Of a stretch of 64,000 bases of DNA, positions 19,363 to 28,395 are shown in pieces. The DNA is from Formosa sediminum. Its GTDB lineage: Bacteria > Bacteroidota > Bacteroidia > Flavobacteriales > Flavobacteriaceae. Under the pieces are notes generated by a model that was not told the origin of the DNA, ran no database searches, and saw nothing but the letters and a program-made list of their open reading frames with translations. The position numbers and the translations under genes are program-made. Numbering within the stretch: position 1 is the first letter of the stretch; every line of letters starts with the position of its first letter. Where the stretch lies: assembly GCF_007197735.1 (NCBI RefSeq), contig NZ_CP041637.1:372001-436000 (forward strand), in the 5' to 3' direction.

Positions 19363-20256
19363 TTAATAAGACCACATATCAAGTTCAAAATTTCTAATAC
19401 TTTCTTTAATTCTATCAGATTCTAATAACTGCATTAAAGCATTATCTGCTATGTACTCTGTAACTTCTCTGTCTCCAAATACGTTTTCCTCTTTAAAAAT
19501 ATATCCATTAAAGCGTCTAGAATTAAGAATATGATCAAAAGAAAACGGCACTGCACTATTATTATCATTAAAAGCCTTAGCTTCGTGTAACACTTGTCTT
19601 GCATCTGGATAAAAAATCCAAAATAAAGGAATTAACTCTTTATTATTTGGGTCGTTAAGAAAGTTAACATCCGGTGCAACTGGTGCTATACCCAGTAAAC
19701 GATATTTTAATTCAGACTGACGCTTATCAAAATACCATAAACCTTTAATCCAATATTCAGCAACATCGTAAGACGAAATTTGTTGTTTATTAATATATTG
19801 CTCATCTACAACCCCTTCTGCGTTATATTGTTCGTACCCCATATCAGTAGTATCTACTAAGACTAAAGCATCTTGAATATCTCCTAATGTTCTCTTTGTT
19901 GTAAAGTAAGAATCATCATAAATATTTTCGATTTCGCCTTGTTTAATAGCTTTGATTAGAACATCATAAAGAGAGCGTCTGTTACTTCCAATATTATTAG
20001 TATCTACAGGATAATATAATGGGAAGTTTACACGCTCATCTAACACAACTTTTTCCCAAACCATTTTAGAGAATAATAGGTCACGATCGTCAACATAACC
20101 ATATTCTAACGGTTTATCATTATCTAATGATTTTTGAGCATCAGTTCTTAAACCGATTTCTTCTGGGCTTTTTGCATTTAATATATTTGCTTGCGCAAAA
20201 GAAGCTGAAGCTATAAATATGCTACACAGGGTTAATAAAAAACTTTTATAATTCAT
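19363..20256 (-). CDS. gldN: Type IX secretion/gliding protein GldN
   Basis: A 297-residue exported protein (signal peptide ending near SFAQ). It is the last gene of the gldKLMN operon and matches the GldN/PorN family in length, in the N-terminal region with DDRDLLFSKMVWEKVVLDERVNFPLYYP, and in the C-terminal half with LKYRLLGIAPVAPDV and FWIFYPDARQVLHEAKAFN. GldN and GldK form the periplasmic ring structures attached to the outer membrane in the type IX secretion system, which exports adhesins and enzymes and drives gliding. Only one copy is present here; F. johnsoniae has a second paralogue, gldO, directly behind, which is absent. Confidence 0.93.
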   Translation of the reverse strand: MNYKSFLLTLCSIFIASASFAQANILNAKSPEEIGLRTDAQKSLDNDKPLEYGYVDDRDLLFSKMVWEKVVLDERVNFPLYYPVDTNNIGSNRRSLYDVLIKAIKQGEIENIYDDSYFTTKRTLGDIQDALVLVDTTDMGYEQYNAEGVVDEQYINKQQISSYDVAEYWIKGLWYFDKRQSELKYRLLGIAPVAPDVNFLNDPNNKELIPLFWIFYPDARQVLHEAKAFNDNNSAVPFSFDHILNSRRFNGYIFKEENVFGDREVTEYIADNALMQLLESDRIKESIRNFELDMWSY

Positions 20257-20319: not shown

Positions 20320-21882
20320 TTAGTTAGAAAGCTCTATTAAAATTGGAGATACTTTTTTCAATTTATAAGATGAATTACCATTGATTTGAGCAGAGATATC
20401 AAAAATTGTTACAGCCTCTCCTCGTTTAGCTTTACGTAATGCAGCTTCTGCTCTACTATTAAGCTTAGTTCCTCCAACTGTAATTGTAGGTTGTCCAGGT
20501 ATTTTAATTTTAAAAGATGTTACTTTTAAAGGTAAGTCGAAATCAAAATCATCTAATTTTGCTCCAATAGTAGCAGATGCTAAACTATTACGCTGCATAG
20601 ACACATTTCCAGACTCTCCACGAATAGTTCCTGTTGGGCTTGGAATATCCTTAATTCTAAATGTAGCTTTATCAGACACTTTGTTTCCATCAGGTAAAAC
20701 TCCGCTTACGTTAATAGTAACTTCTCTTCCAGAACCTGGATTCATTATATATTTACCATTACCAGAACCTTTCTTTAAACCAGGCGCGCTTGCATTTACT
20801 TTGTTATCTGCAATACCTGCAAAAGTAATAGTCATTGGGTTTGCAACACCACGATATACTACATTCATCTTATCTGCAGAGATTGTTGCTGCATTTGGCT
20901 TAGAAATAGTAGCAAAAGTAGATTTTACAGGCACTTCTACAGACTCTCCATCTTGTAAAAATGTTAATTTACCTTCAATAACATGTTCTCCAGCACTTCC
21001 TGTACCAAAGTTTAATTTTACTTTACCATCTTCTACAGTATATTGCTCTTCAGTTAATGGTCTTCCGTCTAGAGTTAATTCAACTTTATTTGGTTTTGTA
21101 GAACCATCTTTACGACCTAATACAATGTTACCATCAAAAGTTTCTCCATTAAAGTATGCAGATTTAGACGTTTCTAATAAAGTTGTATAGTTAGTCATAG
21201 AAGCTTCAGCTGCTAAAGACCCTGCTAACATATTATTTAAAACTTCTGAATTTGTTGTTTTAAGATCTGATTGTAATTGAGTAATCTTTGTTAAAGAAGC
21301 AACTAAAGGATATCCTTTATAATTGTATTCTAACCAATCTACTTCAATACCATCTCTATTTTCTACTGGAGATGTACTAAATTTCTTTTTAACATCTGCT
21401 GCCATGGGAGCTAATTTAGGATCTGATTCTAAAACAGCAACAGTCCCATCTCTAAATTTAGCGATTTGATTTAAGAATTCTTCACCTTCTGGCTTATAGT
21501 TATCGCCTTGAAAAAAGTGATTATCTAAGAAATCTCCTTTATCCATAGTTTCATAATCCGTAGCATCATCTAGGTCTGCTGTCATTTTTGTTTTTAAACC
21601 TTCTAGATACGAATTAAAGTCTTTACCTAACTCTTCAATTTTATCTGCCTTTTGTTTAAGGGGTTTAAATTTTTCCGGGTTTTCGTCTGCTTTCACAGCT
21701 AAATTAGCTAATAAAGCTTGATTACGAGCTGTTGCTAATTGGTTTGATTCAACCAATTTTTCGTTCATTAATCCAAATGCTGAAAGCACCTCTTTTGACA
21801 TATTCAATGCTAACATCGCAATGAAAATTAAATACATCAAGTTAATCATTTTCTGCCTTGCAGATAAATTTCCTCCTGCCAT
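20320..21882 (-). CDS. gldM: Type IX secretion/gliding motor protein GldM
   Basis: A 520-residue protein with one N-terminal membrane helix (about 13-33, MINLMYLIFIAMLALNMSKE) and a long periplasmic part. The first periplasmic section is helical, followed by beta-rich Ig-like domains, as in the known D1-D4 structure of GldM/PorM. The C-terminal segment has the conserved FKIKIPGQPTITVGG. With GldL it forms the proton-driven rotary motor of the type IX system, and it spans the periplasm to the GldKN ring. Start MAGGNLSARQK is the family standard. The gap to gldL is 55 bases. Confidence 0.95.
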   Translation of the reverse strand: MAGGNLSARQKMINLMYLIFIAMLALNMSKEVLSAFGLMNEKLVESNQLATARNQALLANLAVKADENPEKFKPLKQKADKIEELGKDFNSYLEGLKTKMTADLDDATDYETMDKGDFLDNHFFQGDNYKPEGEEFLNQIAKFRDGTVAVLESDPKLAPMAADVKKKFSTSPVENRDGIEVDWLEYNYKGYPLVASLTKITQLQSDLKTTNSEVLNNMLAGSLAAEASMTNYTTLLETSKSAYFNGETFDGNIVLGRKDGSTKPNKVELTLDGRPLTEEQYTVEDGKVKLNFGTGSAGEHVIEGKLTFLQDGESVEVPVKSTFATISKPNAATISADKMNVVYRGVANPMTITFAGIADNKVNASAPGLKKGSGNGKYIMNPGSGREVTINVSGVLPDGNKVSDKATFRIKDIPSPTGTIRGESGNVSMQRNSLASATIGAKLDDFDFDLPLKVTSFKIKIPGQPTITVGGTKLNSRAEAALRKAKRGEAVTIFDISAQINGNSSYKLKKVSPILIELSN

Positions 21883-21937: not shown

Positions 21938-22591
21938 TTATTTTTTTACCATAGCAGAAAGCATTCCACCGTAAACACCGTTTAAAGATGATAAGTTAGA
22001 TGCTAAAGATTGCATTTGATCTTTTAATTTTTGTGCATTTTCTACAGACTCTTTATTAATAGTTGCTTGACGAGAAACACTCTCTAATTGCACTTTATAA
22101 AGGCTGTTTAAAGATTCCATTTGAGATGCAGCGATAGACATTTCTTCACCATATTTTTTTGTAGAAGCAATAGAGTCTATTGTAGGATTAATCCCTTTTG
22201 CAGCACCTTCAAAGTTTTTAATACTAGTTCCTAAACTAGCCATTAAGTTTGCATCAATTTTAGCTTCTTTTAATAAGTTATCTAATTTTTTAGATAATAA
22301 TCCTTCAGCATCTTTAGGTTCTTCTGCTTTACCTTTTACAGTTGCTTTAGGAGTTCCGCCTGCTAATTCAGGATAAACTTTAGACCAGTCTAATTCTTCT
22401 TCTACTGGTTCAAATGCAGATAATGCGAAAATAACCGCTTCTGCTACAAGACCAATAGTTAACATTAAGTTACCTGTTATAGGTCCAAATTCAATATGTG
22501 TAATCTTAAATAATGCTCCAATGATTACTACTGACGCTCCAAGACCATAGGCCATGTTCATCATTCTTTTTCCTGCTTTAGATTTTGCCAT
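21938..22591 (-). CDS. gldL: Type IX secretion/gliding motor protein GldL
   Basis: A 217-residue inner-membrane protein with two helices (about 14-31 and 38-60) and a long cytoplasmic C-terminal part with predicted helices. GldL pentamers surround the GldM helices and conduct protons. The charged intramembrane positions described for the family seem to be kept: K29 in helix 1, E51 in helix 2 (LVAEAVIF) and E61 at its end (SAFEPVEEE). Start MAKSKAGKRMMN is standard. It lies second in the operon, 81 bases after gldK. Confidence 0.94.
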   Translation of the reverse strand: MAKSKAGKRMMNMAYGLGASVVIIGALFKITHIEFGPITGNLMLTIGLVAEAVIFALSAFEPVEEELDWSKVYPELAGGTPKATVKGKAEEPKDAEGLLSKKLDNLLKEAKIDANLMASLGTSIKNFEGAAKGINPTIDSIASTKKYGEEMSIAASQMESLNSLYKVQLESVSRQATINKESVENAQKLKDQMQSLASNLSSLNGVYGGMLSAMVKK

Positions 22592-22672: not shown

Positions 22673-24040
22673 TTATCTTCCTGAGTTACCTGTAATATCT
22701 GTTCCCATGTAATCTTGAACAGTTCTAAATCCAATGTAACTTCTTGCTGAATCAGCGTATTCGTAATCTCTTGAGCTAACTTGTAAAAAGTAAGCGACAT
22801 CTTTCCAAGACCCCCCACGTACAACTTTACGTTGGTTAGAATTGTCGTTAACAATAGGGTTAATAGAAGATGAATATTCGTAAGATGCTGGGTCGTAAGA
22901 TGAGTACACCCATTCTGCAACATTACCAGCCATATTATATAAATTATAATCATTAGGCTCGTAAGATTTAGCTTCTACTGTATATAAAGCTTGATCTGCT
23001 GCATAATCCCCTCTTAAAGGCTTAAAGTTTGCTAAGAAACATCCTCTGTCGTCTTTAGCATATGGTCCTCCCCAAGGAAAAGTTGCAGCTTGCAATCCAC
23101 CACGAGCAGCATATTCCCACTCTGCTTCAGAAGGTAATCTAAAAGAGTTTACGTATTGTCTTTTTTTGTCTTTTTGGTATGCATTTTTATACAATGTTCT
23201 CCATTGGCAGAATGCATTGGCTTGTTTCCAGCTTACACCTACCACTGGGTATTCACCATAAGCATCATGCCAGAAATAATCATTATGCATTGGCTCATTA
23301 TATGAGTAAGAAAAATCTCTTATCCAAGCTGTAGTATCTGGATACACCATTACTTCTTCTTGCACAATAACATCACTACGTTTAAGGTTTTTATTTTTCG
23401 CAGCTTTTTGAATATCTAGATAGGTATATTGAAATTTAAATTTATTAACATCCCAAGTACGTTGTCCGTTGTAAGATTCTTCTAAAGGAATGTGCATAGA
23501 GTCCATAACTTCTGTATAAAGCTCGTCTGGATATTCTGCTTGATCATAAATTAAATCTACGCGTTTATTCAATTTTCTCCCTTCGTTTCCTGTAGGCCCT
23601 AAACCACTATAATTGTCTAACATATACTTTTCATAGACAGTCATACTAGCGGTATCTGCATCTGTGTAAGCAAATTCTCCAATCCCACCATCTTCAGGAG
23701 TTTTTCCAACTTCATCTGCTAAATTGGCCAAACGTGTTCTGATTATAGAATCGCGAACCCAATTTACAAATTGTCTGTACTCTCCATTAGTAATTTCAGT
23801 TTCATCCATATAGAATGCACGAACTGTTACTGTTTTAGAAGGCGCATCTTGAATTCCTGCTAAATCATCATCGGCTTTACCCATAATAAATGATCCACCT
23901 GGAACTAAAGTCATTCCGTAAGGTTTTTCTGGATGCCACCTTTTTCCTTGAACTCCAACAAGTTCACCTCTGTCTCCAGAGCCACAACTCATTATTACTG
24001 TTAATACAACTGTTAATAATACTAATTTTTTCATATCCAT
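22673..24040 (-). CDS. gldK: Type IX secretion/gliding lipoprotein GldK
   Basis: A 455-residue lipoprotein with the lipobox IMSC near residue 19. The rest is a formylglycine-generating-enzyme/sulfatase-modifying-factor fold: MTLVPGGSFIMG near the start, GVSWKQANAFCQWR and RLPSEAEWEYAARGG in the middle, and NMAGNVAEWV and RGGSWKD near the end. In GldK/PorK this fold is used structurally, in the ring with GldN under the outer membrane. The start could be M1 or M3 of MDMKKL. It is the first gene of the gldKLMN operon; I found no clear promoter box in the 157 bases before it, so it may be read through from topA and the arginase-fold gene. Confidence 0.94.
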   Translation of the reverse strand: MDMKKLVLLTVVLTVIMSCGSGDRGELVGVQGKRWHPEKPYGMTLVPGGSFIMGKADDDLAGIQDAPSKTVTVRAFYMDETEITNGEYRQFVNWVRDSIIRTRLANLADEVGKTPEDGGIGEFAYTDADTASMTVYEKYMLDNYSGLGPTGNEGRKLNKRVDLIYDQAEYPDELYTEVMDSMHIPLEESYNGQRTWDVNKFKFQYTYLDIQKAAKNKNLKRSDVIVQEEVMVYPDTTAWIRDFSYSYNEPMHNDYFWHDAYGEYPVVGVSWKQANAFCQWRTLYKNAYQKDKKRQYVNSFRLPSEAEWEYAARGGLQAATFPWGGPYAKDDRGCFLANFKPLRGDYAADQALYTVEAKSYEPNDYNLYNMAGNVAEWVYSSYDPASYEYSSSINPIVNDNSNQRKVVRGGSWKDVAYFLQVSSRDYEYADSARSYIGFRTVQDYMGTDITGNSGR

Positions 24041-24197
24041 AGAAAACTTGAGGTTATAATTGATACCTAAATTTTAGACTGTAAACATATTTATATATTT
24101 TTTAAAAAACAATTTTTTTGAGGAAAAATTAAACATTTCGTCGTAAAAAAGTGCATTTTATCGATAGGCAGTACGTTTCGTCTATTATTTTAGTCAT

Positions 24198-25367
24198 TTA
24201 AACGCAATTTTTTTGATAAGCTTTGAACCAACGTTGAGGAATTTTGTTATTACAAGCATCTAAATAATCTTGATGCATACACGGTAATAACGTATGTCTT
24301 TTCAATTTATTATTAATTTCATTTAAAAAGGGGATCTCAATCCACCAGCGTCCAGTCTTGATGCTTTTGTAAAAATTGAGTTCTTGGGAGTCGACTAAGG
24401 TAATAAATTTTTGGTATATATGTTCATCTTTAAAGTCAGTATCTTCTACTCTATTATTAACGCCTTCAATAAAATACCAAATCATTTGAGAAATTAAAAT
24501 ACAAGTAATTTCATCGTCCTTAGAAGGTTTATATTCAAAAATACCGAGTGTACTTACTTTATTACTAATACCCGCATATCTAGTTATAGCGCATATTTCT
24601 TTACCGTCTAAACCATTTGGAGAAACTTTTTGATTTAAACTCACTTCTGAAGCTTTTATAGATCCTAAATCTACTGAGACAATATTTGCATCACGCATTA
24701 CAGGTTCTACTAGCGTAATATCATTAGAGACTTGCCCCAATCTATAGGCTTCAAAATATAATGTTTCCATTAAATCTATCTGTTCCTGAGAATTAAAGTA
24801 AGTTTGATAGCCAATAGTTGCATAGTTAAATAAGTTATAGGGCTCTTCTAAGATAATTTTACCTACAAAACTATCGTTTTTAATAGGCTGTGTTAAATCT
24901 CCTAAATCAAAATTACGATCTACATTTACAAGGTTAACCATTGGAATAATCTTATCGAATGCACGATACATAGGGTATGTAAGATCTTGACTTCCGCCTA
25001 GTACAACTGGTATAATTTTTAATTTTACCAATTCTGAAACCGTTTCCTTTAAGGCGTAGTATGTGTCTTCTACAGTTTCTCCTTTATATATATCTCCTAA
25101 ATCAGCTAATTTTGTACTCCAACTTCCTGGAAATAACTTATAGAAGGCATTGCGGATTTCGTTTAAATTAAAATCTTCTCCTATATAATTAACATCATTT
25201 CTATTTTCTAGAACCCCTAATAATACGATTTCTACACCTTCTAAATCAGGAATACCATGTTCTTTTGTATGTATTTTTATTTTTTTACCAATAGTTTGTG
25301 GCGATAACACCTCTGTATATGCAACAACAGCATCGGGTACTGGAGCCAAAAAATTAAGGTCGGCCAT
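24198..25367 (-). CDS. Arginase-fold protein lacking the manganese ligands
   Basis: A 389-residue protein of the arginase/formiminoglutamase (ureohydrolase) superfamily by fold pattern: VVLGGSQDLTYPM, LVNVDRNFDLGD and ANIVSVDLGSIKASE occupy the places of the three metal motifs. In active enzymes these read GGxH, DAHxD and DxD. Here the first histidine is Q127, the DAHxD histidine is N152 and the DxD aspartate is G235, so the dimanganese site should be absent and hydrolysis unlikely. The gene starts three bases after topA and precedes gldK on the same strand. A structural or regulatory role, perhaps tied to type IX secretion, is inferred from this setting only. Annotation as formimidoylglutamase would be misleading. 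Confidence 0.78.
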   Translation of the reverse strand: MADLNFLAPVPDAVVAYTEVLSPQTIGKKIKIHTKEHGIPDLEGVEIVLLGVLENRNDVNYIGEDFNLNEIRNAFYKLFPGSWSTKLADLGDIYKGETVEDTYYALKETVSELVKLKIIPVVLGGSQDLTYPMYRAFDKIIPMVNLVNVDRNFDLGDLTQPIKNDSFVGKIILEEPYNLFNYATIGYQTYFNSQEQIDLMETLYFEAYRLGQVSNDITLVEPVMRDANIVSVDLGSIKASEVSLNQKVSPNGLDGKEICAITRYAGISNKVSTLGIFEYKPSKDDEITCILISQMIWYFIEGVNNRVEDTDFKDEHIYQKFITLVDSQELNFYKSIKTGRWWIEIPFLNEINNKLKRHTLLPCMHQDYLDACNNKIPQRWFKAYQKNCV

Positions 25368-25370
25368 GAA

Positions 25371-27881
25371 TTATTTCTTTTTTGCAGTGGTTGTCTTTTT
25401 CTTAGCTGTCGCTTTCTTTTTAGCTGCAGTTTTACGCTTTGGAGTTTTAGCTTCTATCATCGCCTTTGCTTCGTCTAATGTTATCTTTGTTGCATCAACA
25501 GTTTTGTCTAATTCAACCTTTACTTTTCCTTTTATAACATTATGCCTTCCCCAACGGGCTTTTTCTACACGAATACCTTCTTCTTCCCAGTTATGAACAA
25601 CTTTATCAATTTCTTTCTGGATTTTTTCTTTTATTAACGTCACTATATCATCATCAGATAAATTATCCCAATCATATTTTTTGTTTACGTTAATAAACAT
25701 ATTGTTCCATTTAATAAAGGGTCCAAAACGTCCTTTTCCTTTTTGTACAGGTAAACCATCATACATATATATAGGTGCATCTGCTTTTTGTTTTTCTTTA
25801 ATTAAAACAATAGCATCATCTAACTCTACACTTAAAGCATCGACACCTTTTGGTAAAGACACATAGGCATCTCCAAATTTAATATATGGTCCAAAACGAC
25901 CATTATTTACAACCACAGGTTCCCCTTCATAAGTTCCTAAATCTTTAGGTAACTTAAATAAATCCAAGGCCTCTTCGAAAGTTATAGTATTTAATTGTTG
26001 GTCTGGCGACAAACTTGCAAATATTTTATCGTCTTCTTCGGCTGCGCCTATTTGAGCCATTGGTCCAAATTTACCTAAACGCACACTAACTTGGCGCCCA
26101 GTTTTAGGGTCTGTTCCTAAAATACGTTCTCCAGATTCGCGGTCTGCATTTTCTTGAACATCTTTTACATGAGGATGAAATTTAACATAGAATTCTTTCA
26201 TCATCTCTGTCCAATTCTCTTTTCCTTCTGCTATATCATCAAAGTCTTCTTCAACTTTTGCTGTAAAATTGTAATCTAAAATACTTTCAAAATGATTTAC
26301 TAAAAAGTCGGTTACAATCATTCCGATATCTGTTGGGACTAACTTCCCTTTATCTGAACCTACCTTTTCTGTAAGTAGCTTGTCTTTAACAGCACCTTCT
26401 TTTAGCGTAAGTTGTGTGTATTCACGCTCGACACCTTCTACAGTACCTTTTTCTACATAATTTCTATTTTGGATTGTAGAAATTGTTGGCGCATAAGTAG
26501 ACGGACGACCAATACCTAATTCTTCAAGTTTCTTAACTAAAGAAGCTTCTGTATATCTATAAGGTGGTCGTGTATAACGTTCTGTAGCAGTAATATATTC
26601 GTTAAGAAGCGTTTCGTTAACTTTCATAGCAGGTAACATTCCTTCTTGTTCAGAATCTTCATCGTCTGTACCTTCTAAGTATACTTTTAAAAAGCCATCG
26701 AAAGTTATAACTTCCCCGTTTGCAGAAAATAATTCTTTATGTGTAGAAGCCGATATTTTAACATTGGTACGTTCTAATTGCGCTTCACTCATTTGCGAAG
26801 CTATGGCACGTTTCCAAATTAGCTCGTATAAACGGGCTTGATCTCTATCTATATCTACGGTGTGTAATGCAAAATCTGTTGGACGTATTGCTTCGTGAGC
26901 TTCTTGTGCTCCTTTTGCTTTACCTTTATAATTACGCTCTTTAGCATATTTTTTTCCGTAAGCATTTTCAATTTCTGCTTTAGCTCCTTTTCGTGCTTCG
27001 TCAGATAAGTTTACACTATCGGTTCTCATATAAGTAATTAAACCGGCTTCGTATAAACGTTGTGCCATAGTCATGGTTTTACTTACCGAAAAATACAGTT
27101 TTCTCGCTGCTTCTTGCTGTAGTGTTGATGTTGTAAATGGTGCAGCGGGCGATTTTTTAGCTGGCTTTTTTTCTAAATCTGAAACTTTAAAATCTGCATT
27201 AGCATTTTGTTCTAAAAATTTAAATGCGTCGGCTTTTGAGGCAAATGTTTTTGGTAATTTAGCTTTAAAGGTTTGCCCCTCTTCATTAGAGAATTCTGCA
27301 TCTATACGGTAAGATGCCTCGGCTTTAAACTCTTGTATTTCGCGTTCACGCTCTACAATTAATCTTACAGACACAGATTGTACACGTCCGGCAGATAATC
27401 CGCCTTTTACCTTTCGCCATAACACTGGAGATAATTCGTATCCTACAATTCTATCTAAAACACGTCGAGCTTGTTGGGCATCTACCAAATGGTAATCTAT
27501 ACCACGCGGATTTTCAATTGCTTTTTGTATAGCCGATTTAGTAATTTCATGAAAAACAATACGTTTTGTTTTAGCTTTATCTAATTTTAAAGTCTCTGCC
27601 AAATGCCATGCTATAGCTTCTCCTTCGCGATCCTCATCACTTGCTAGCCAAACCATTTCGGCTTTCTTAGACAAATCTCTTAGCTTTTTAACAACTGATT
27701 TCTTATCGGAAGACACCTCGTATTTCGGACTAAAATCACCTTCTACATCTACACCTAATTCTTTAGAAGGCAAATCGGCAATATGACCAAAACTAGACTC
27801 TACTTTATAATCTTTACCTAAAAATTTTTCGATCGTTTTCGCCTTTGCAGGGGACTCCACTATTACTAAATTCTTCGCCAT
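25371..27881 (-). CDS. topA: DNA topoisomerase I
   Basis: An 836-residue type IA topoisomerase that relaxes negative supercoils. The TOPRIM domain opens with LVIVESPAKAKTIEKFLG and has the acidic DEDREGEAIAWHL. The catalytic tyrosine is in GLITYMRTDSVNLS (about residue 283). The C-terminal part has several topoisomerase C-terminal repeats (GRFGPYIKFGD, GRFGPFIKWNN) instead of cysteine zinc fingers, and ends in a Lys/Ala-rich tail. The start is MAKNLVIVES (27881); the longer frame to 27914 begins upstream of the -7 box at 27901-27908. The arginase-fold gene follows after three bases. Confidence 0.96.
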   Translation of the reverse strand: MAKNLVIVESPAKAKTIEKFLGKDYKVESSFGHIADLPSKELGVDVEGDFSPKYEVSSDKKSVVKKLRDLSKKAEMVWLASDEDREGEAIAWHLAETLKLDKAKTKRIVFHEITKSAIQKAIENPRGIDYHLVDAQQARRVLDRIVGYELSPVLWRKVKGGLSAGRVQSVSVRLIVEREREIQEFKAEASYRIDAEFSNEEGQTFKAKLPKTFASKADAFKFLEQNANADFKVSDLEKKPAKKSPAAPFTTSTLQQEAARKLYFSVSKTMTMAQRLYEAGLITYMRTDSVNLSDEARKGAKAEIENAYGKKYAKERNYKGKAKGAQEAHEAIRPTDFALHTVDIDRDQARLYELIWKRAIASQMSEAQLERTNVKISASTHKELFSANGEVITFDGFLKVYLEGTDDEDSEQEGMLPAMKVNETLLNEYITATERYTRPPYRYTEASLVKKLEELGIGRPSTYAPTISTIQNRNYVEKGTVEGVEREYTQLTLKEGAVKDKLLTEKVGSDKGKLVPTDIGMIVTDFLVNHFESILDYNFTAKVEEDFDDIAEGKENWTEMMKEFYVKFHPHVKDVQENADRESGERILGTDPKTGRQVSVRLGKFGPMAQIGAAEEDDKIFASLSPDQQLNTITFEEALDLFKLPKDLGTYEGEPVVVNNGRFGPYIKFGDAYVSLPKGVDALSVELDDAIVLIKEKQKADAPIYMYDGLPVQKGKGRFGPFIKWNNMFINVNKKYDWDNLSDDDIVTLIKEKIQKEIDKVVHNWEEEGIRVEKARWGRHNVIKGKVKVELDKTVDATKITLDEAKAMIEAKTPKRKTAAKKKATAKKKTTTAKKK

Positions 27882-27900
27882 TTTTATTTTTTTGGTAGTA

Positions 27901-27908
27901 CAAATGTA
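27901..27908 (-). promoter_or_regulatory. -7 element of the topA promoter
   Basis: The minus strand reads TACATTTG, a TAnnTTTG match, 19 bases before the topA start at 27881. No well-spaced -33 TTG is visible. Confidence 0.5.
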
Positions 27909-28395
27909 TATCAAAAAAGCAACATCATCCTAATTTTAAAAGCATTCAGTACGATGAAAGGTTAAAAACTTCGATTTTCAACCTATAATTTTTCAATTTA
28001 ATTATTAATTTTTTACGAAAAACACTAAGTTTTCCTATAAAACGGTTTCGCCTTTTAAATTTTTAAAGCCAAATGCTTCTTTATAAATTATATACAATAA
28101 TAAGTATGTACGCAATATAATTTTTAAAGGTCTTATAAAATATAACACCTGTATTAATTGACCTTACATTATAACATACTACTGTACATTCATAATTAAT
28201 GCTTTTTCAATGTATTTATACAAACATTATACACTCATTCTAACAAATAATCTTTTGTTTACATAATAAGAGAGACATTTATATCAATACCCAAACCTAA
28301 TTCACTACCATATATGCTTAACTTAGCACACATTGTAAAATACTTTATAAAACTAACGGTTGTATATTTTAACAAAAAATTACTAGAAAATTAAA
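27909..28395. other. Long divergent intergenic region, topA / miaB
   Basis: About 490 bases of very AT-rich DNA lie between the topA promoter box and the inverted repeat in front of miaB. I found no convincing reading frame, tRNA-like fold or strong terminator-type hairpin. It is the longest non-coding stretch in the window. Confidence 0.6.

Follow-up and report, generated by a model that had tools for sequence, protein, structure and literature searches.

A probable pseudo-formimidoylglutamase encoded beside topA and type IX secretion genes in Bacteroidia

Results

The locus

The window analysed here is the whole 64,000-nucleotide stretch at positions 372,001 to 436,000 of the Formosa sediminum contig NZ_CP041637.1. 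Its relevant features, numbered from the first letter of the window, are as follows.

25371-27914, minus strand: topA, directly upstream of the pseudo-arginase gene (TIGR01051, 720.6 bits)
24198-25367, minus strand: putative pseudo-formimidoylglutamase gene, 389 amino acids (open reading frame, Pfam Arginase, AlphaFold2, Foldseek)
24201-24458, minus strand: family-specific C-terminal domain, last 86 codons of that gene (alignment of 66 members)
24081-24112, minus strand: conserved promoter-like block 5' of gldK (TTG-N20-TAnGTTTAC)
22673-24040, minus strand: gldK, 157 bp downstream of the pseudo-arginase gene and first in gldKLMN (TIGR03525, 597.9 bits)
21938-22591, minus strand: gldL (TIGR03513, 229.6 bits)
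20320-21882, minus strand: gldM (TIGR03517, 463.9 bits)
19363-20256, minus strand: gldN (TIGR03523, 272.3 bits)

A preliminary description of this DNA had placed the gene between topA and gldK with its start three bases after topA, and both statements held: the open reading frame was recovered, NCBIfam models named topA, GldK, GldL, GldM and GldN around it, and its ATG lies 3 bp beyond the topA stop codon. The same description had the gene running into the type IX core operon. The gldKLMN genes do follow downstream, but across a 157-bp gap that holds the promoter-like block. The encoded protein comprises an arginase-fold core (approximately residues 45-305) and a C-terminal domain (approximately 306-389), with no N-terminal signal sequence apparent by eye.

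An arginase fold without a justified enzyme name

Arginase was the sole Pfam family matched by the Formosa protein (PF00491; 55.2 bits against a cut-off of 22, E 9.6e-15), and when E values up to 1 were admitted, 37 of 38 diverse family members matched it too. The AlphaFold2 model, for which 86 related sequences served as input, reached a pLDDT of 92.6 and a pTM of 0.93, and its top Foldseek matches in the PDB were the formiminoglutamases 4mxr (E 8.7e-15, TM 0.78 by target length) and 3m1r, accompanied by agmatinases and metformin hydrolase subunits. The predicted structure thus bears out the earlier claim that the fold is kept. When the family profile was compared with solved structures by sequence, Bacillus subtilis HutG (3m1r) was again the best match (1.4e-18).

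It had been anticipated that automatic annotation would call the protein formimidoylglutamase or arginase. The second name is right at the level of the domain; the first is not, since the protein scored only 57.8 bits on TIGR01227, the NCBIfam equivalog model for formimidoylglutamase HutG, whose cut-off is 229.15. The match to the NCBIfam agmatinase model was likewise far under its cut-off. Because both scores fall so far short, an enzyme name is unwarranted and, judged by these models, the only justified name is the domain-level 'arginase family'.

Fixed loss of the second manganese site

In arginase, the Mn-A ion is bound by His101, Asp124, Asp128 and Asp232, and the Mn-B ion by His126, Asp124, Asp232 and Asp234. 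The corresponding Formosa motifs read GGSQ127, D150-R-N152-F-D154 and D233-L-G235. Across 89 Flavobacteriaceae orthologues the equivalent of His101 (position 127) was Gln in 84 and His in 5, that of His126 (position 152) was mostly Lys (36), Arg (26) or Asn (11) and His in only 2, and that of Asp234 (position 235) was Asp in only 2. By contrast, D150 and D233 were kept in all 89, and position 154 was Asp in 80 and Asn in 9. The claim that all three metal motifs have changed is therefore correct for the His101, His126 and Asp234 equivalents but not for D150, D154 and D233, which make up three of the four Mn-A ligands. Both ligands specific to Mn-B are lost, and the six-ligand binuclear cluster is incomplete. 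The expectation that the missing ligands would be fixed across orthologues was also confirmed, His126 and Asp234 being gone in 87 of the 89 each, and the same pattern of loss recurs throughout the sampled Bacteroidia families. Since the orthologues share this loss of catalytic residues and the fold is kept, the protein is a probable pseudoenzyme.

The five Flavobacteriaceae orthologues with His at the His101 position (L083, L085, L087, L088 and L089) lack the Mn-B ligands, and may be either intermediates or reversions.

The changes reach beyond the metal ligands. Seven further residues (G57, N58, G60, R61, R156, S164 and G165) were invariant or nearly so in a comparison set of 20 HutG-like proteins whose ligands are essentially intact, and none of these residues is conserved in the family; some of the seven bind substrate. 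The family has instead acquired its own invariant core residues, R209, R225, C259 and W297, while the substrate-side glutamate E278 is kept in 67% of a broad set of sequences. Taken as a whole, the sequence comparison indicates a site no longer equipped for binuclear catalysis.

One metal ion might nonetheless be held, since D150, D154 and D233 are retained, and a leftover mononuclear A-type site is possible for most members. On this basis the protein might be a repurposed enzyme or sensor that holds one A-type metal through the three acids and Gln127 and has Lys or Arg in place of the second. The retention of the acids, the frequency of E278 and the two near-invariant cysteines of the family (259 and 363) would all suit such an arrangement. 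We nevertheless consider it improbable: four deep members (L108, L115, L116 and L122) are without even the acids yet carry the C-terminal signature, the HutG-conserved active-site residues are gone, and the remaining acids may be merely structural.

A C-terminal domain specific to the family

The C-terminal domain, of about 80 amino acids, was absent from the 20 HutG-like outgroup proteins. Its near-invariant positions are an RWW motif (340-342), C363, D367-Y368, A371, P377 and W380, and in the alignment of 66 members W341, W342, C363 and Y368 showed no variation at all. AlphaFold2 predicted a small beta structure plus two helices from about residue 306 onwards; modelled alone, the domain reached a pLDDT of just 74. 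No acceptable match to it was found in Pfam, NCBIfam, PHROGs, PDB sequences or PDB folds.

An ancient family under purifying selection

The gene was found in 148 of 151 Flavobacteriaceae genomes, including all 127 near-complete ones and small genomes of 1.3-1.9 Mb, and in 281 of 296 Bacteroidia genomes, mostly as a single copy. The three Flavobacteriaceae genomes without it (G052, G066 and G084) were considered as cases of co-loss and rejected, since proper matches to gldK and topA were missing from them too, which makes missing contigs the likelier explanation. Matches outside Bacteroidia covered the core only and were HutG-like in appearance.

A tree was built from core columns, without the ligand columns and the C-terminal domain. 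A branch with SH-aLRT support of 100 separated all 58 sampled members from the intact HutG-like proteins, which were the nearest outgroup; the method was a quick one and some branches were long. On this tree the ligand states require two changes: the first is common to the whole family, and the second belongs to another degenerate copy carried by the Formosa genome. This second arginase-fold protein of Formosa has the motifs GGTQ, SAHTK and DCN, lacks the C-terminal domain, sits on a very long branch and lost its metal site independently on the tree. Its gene is located as follows.

L003:1306-2424 (G000:C1 ~2856152-2857270), minus strand: second degenerate arginase-fold gene

We infer that both the loss of the ligands and the gain of the C-terminal domain predate the divergence of the sampled Bacteroidia.

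Lost catalytic residues could also be the mark of a gene decaying without function. Conservation excludes this for practical purposes: dN/dS was 0.057 against a same-genus orthologue (NG86; dN 0.097 and dS 1.70, a value that puts synonymous sites near saturation), identity stayed at about 74% across many genera, and retention is near-universal, the small genomes included. Such values point to strong purifying selection on the gene.

Association with topA and with type IX secretion genes

The order topA-gene-gldK, all on the same strand, was present in 87 of the 89 Flavobacteriaceae loci fetched, and gldK adjoined the gene in 88; of the exceptions, L085 has only gldK beside the gene, and L090 has neither neighbour and keeps the protein. 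Elsewhere the order is often topA-gene-porP-gldK-L-M-N, in which the gene inserted before gldK scores well as PorP/SprF. The synteny with topA and gldK that had been proposed from the Formosa sequence thus extends well beyond it. Among 80 named loci, roughly 31 had porP and gldK-type genes nearby, about 18 had topA only and about 30 had neither, although some contigs end too early for the neighbours to be judged. Mucilaginibacter and Pedobacter belong to the last group, and the Sphingobacteriaceae loci are unlinked to type IX secretion system (T9SS) genes.

Nine loci from Sphingobacteriaceae and relatives that have no topA or T9SS neighbours (L202, L208, L209, L211, L212, L214, L215, L217 and L218) share a second conserved context, in which the gene and an NAD-dependent epimerase-like gene are divergently oriented.

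Co-occurrence was assessed in 119 genomes from one Bacteroidales-like order, counting the protein as present at 171 bits or more. It was present in 84 genomes and gldL in 109. None of the 10 gldL-negative genomes had the protein (Fisher p 1.7e-6, a value that ignores shared ancestry), and about 25 genomes were gldL-positive and protein-negative. In about 45 of the 84 protein-positive genomes the gene lay within roughly 4 kb of gldL, going by coordinates compared by eye. In the class-wide sample, gldL was found without the protein in 9 genomes and the protein without detected gldL in 5, four of which are more fragmented or less complete drafts. G381, which is 99% complete, carries the pseudo-arginase and had no detected gldL, and is thus a candidate for a role independent of the T9SS.

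These results bear on the strongest rival explanation, that the protein is a housekeeping pseudoenzyme tied to topA or general physiology and that its gene stands before gldK through inheritance of the order and not through a shared function. The gene hugs topA (median gap 5 bp, at most 30 bp in 62 of 87 Flavobacteriaceae loci), the pair occurs without por genes in the topA-only loci, por neighbours are lacking in Sphingobacteriaceae, L090 retains the gene away from both topA and gldK, and five genomes have it with gldL undetected. Against this, the gene was absent from every gldL-negative genome of the order sample, where such a role should persist, the gene repeatedly has gldK or porP as its neighbour in many families, and L085 has kept gldK and not topA alongside. 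We regard the housekeeping explanation as possible, with doubts.

The link to gliding and the T9SS that the preliminary description had thought worth testing thus finds support as a genomic association, in the recurrent adjacency and in a distribution nested, within one order, among T9SS carriers. The gene's closest neighbour is nonetheless topA, gldK has a conserved promoter-like block of its own, there are exceptions, and the T9SS association is not exclusive.

A conserved promoter-like block before gldK

In Flavobacteriaceae the gap between the gene and gldK has a median of about 125 bp. Within it, about 40 bp before gldK, sits a block of the form TTG-N20-TAnGTTTAC(G), so that the earlier statement that no promoter box precedes gldK appears to be wrong. 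The looser pattern TTG-N17-23-TAnnTTT occurred before gldK in 65 of 88 genomes, as against a mean of 12.9 and a maximum of 21 in dinucleotide shuffles and 5 of 88 in control sequence taken from before the pseudo-arginase gene, and the spacing within the block was N20 in 61 of 63 cases. In 12 Flavobacteriaceae genomes that were scanned, the long form was found once per genome and always before gldK. We rejected the block as a regulon signal: loose matches elsewhere in these 12 genomes were unlike the long form and about as common as those to a reversed control pattern, which marks the block as gldK-specific.

The promoter consensus of F. johnsoniae is TAHHTTTG (PMC6847099), from which the block departs by a G at the fourth position and an A at the eighth; it may therefore be a special promoter, perhaps a promoter or control element reserved for gldKLMN. 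With a short gap to topA on one side and a promoter-like block in the gap to gldK on the other, the gene appears to close a topA unit, next to a gldK unit that is started separately.

Discussion

The closest known relative of the family is HutG (TIGR01227; PDB 3m1r, 4mxr and 1xfk), which shares its arginase fold, gives the best profile match and is the nearest outgroup, whereas the family has lost the metal ligands and the HutG-conserved residues and has an extra C-terminal domain. The family would descend from a HutG-like ureohydrolase whose lineage lost the second manganese site and the HutG-type active-site residues, gained the C-terminal domain, and gave rise to an ancient, usually single-copy Bacteroidia family that purifying selection has since kept, presumably for something other than ureohydrolysis.

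Proteins of this kind have precedents. Hai et al. reportedly described in 2015 an arginase-like protein of Trypanosoma brucei without the binuclear manganese cluster (PDB 4rhm and 4rhq). It resembles the family in having evolved an arginase fold without that cluster, but it is eukaryotic and only weakly similar by sequence, and to our knowledge it has no C-terminal RWW domain. Another precedent is the metformin hydrolase pseudo-subunit MetCb/MfmAB (PDB 8snf, 8ryi and 8x3g). This bacterial arginase-fold pseudoenzyme, a close fold match, acts by binding, but it is encoded beside its active partner, whereas our family sits beside topA and T9SS genes. Since arginase-fold pseudoenzymes have been described (PMC11271267), the kind is already known; what is new is the family, its C-terminal tail and its genomic setting. 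Searches of the open-licence literature that paired gldK or type IX secretion with the names of arginase-type enzymes (arginase, formimidoylglutamase, agmatinase) returned no paper on the protein.

MetCb suggests a further reading, in which the protein carries no metal and serves as partner subunit to an active ureohydrolase, as MetCb does in the metformin hydrolase MetCaCb. The superfamily does offer a pseudoenzyme subunit that its active partner requires (PMC11271267), and metformin hydrolase structures were among our fold matches. However, no active ureohydrolase adjoins the gene, and the sole intact ureohydrolase of the genome is a distant agmatinase in a polyamine-type cluster (L001), leaving this reading very unlikely. 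At this locus (L001:54-3343) the agmatinase gene lies between a decarboxylase-like gene and an apparent deoxyhypusine-synthase-like gene.

The reading that we favour is of a cytoplasmic pseudo-formimidoylglutamase that acts by binding, most likely in the T9SS/gliding machine or its production, and we hold it with about even confidence. The residues for chemistry are lost, a new tail has been added and T9SS genes are frequent neighbours, which together make a binding protein probable, and binding the most likely mechanism. We infer the absence of catalysis from the residues that have gone. The core, with Lys, Arg or Asn at a lost metal-ligand position, would present the invariant C-terminal surface (RWW, C363 and DY), on which a protein partner or a ligand would be held in the cytoplasm. 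Two observations make the T9SS or its production the most likely setting: the repeated location of the gene next to porP-gldKLMN, and a distribution that tracks the T9SS. The proposal of a non-enzymatic scaffold or regulator is well supported to the extent that a binuclear-metal ureohydrolase is contradicted by the family-wide loss of the Mn-B ligands and the HutG residues, while other residues and the new C-terminal domain are held invariant; a mononuclear A-type metal site may still be left.

The natural partner candidate would be the cytoplasmic part of GldL. More specifically, the protein might be a cytoplasmic T9SS or gliding-motor factor whose C-terminal domain docks GldL/PorL or PorX and controls motor assembly or activity, although in this detailed form the idea is rather unlikely. 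PorX, a soluble protein that PorL recruits through its cytoplasmic domain (PMC5005315), offers a model for a possible T9SS role of the family, but is itself an unrelated response-regulator protein. A lead comes from Porphyromonas gingivalis, in which PGN_1678 was up 3.44-fold with porP-porN in a ppGpp-null mutant (PMC6994654). PGN_1678 is numerically the next locus tag to porP, a place that fits the conserved gene order, and is on that position a candidate orthologue.

Arginase-fold pseudoenzymes are otherwise known from a few scattered cases, whereas this one is kept by nearly the whole class Bacteroidia, and its gene has neighbours that rank with the best studied of the phylum. Should the protein act on the T9SS, it would take its place alongside PorX, according to a 2017 review the one wholly cytoplasmic protein known to be related to the T9SS (PMC5445135). 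If it has no T9SS role, it would be a near-universal Bacteroidia protein whose job lies elsewhere.
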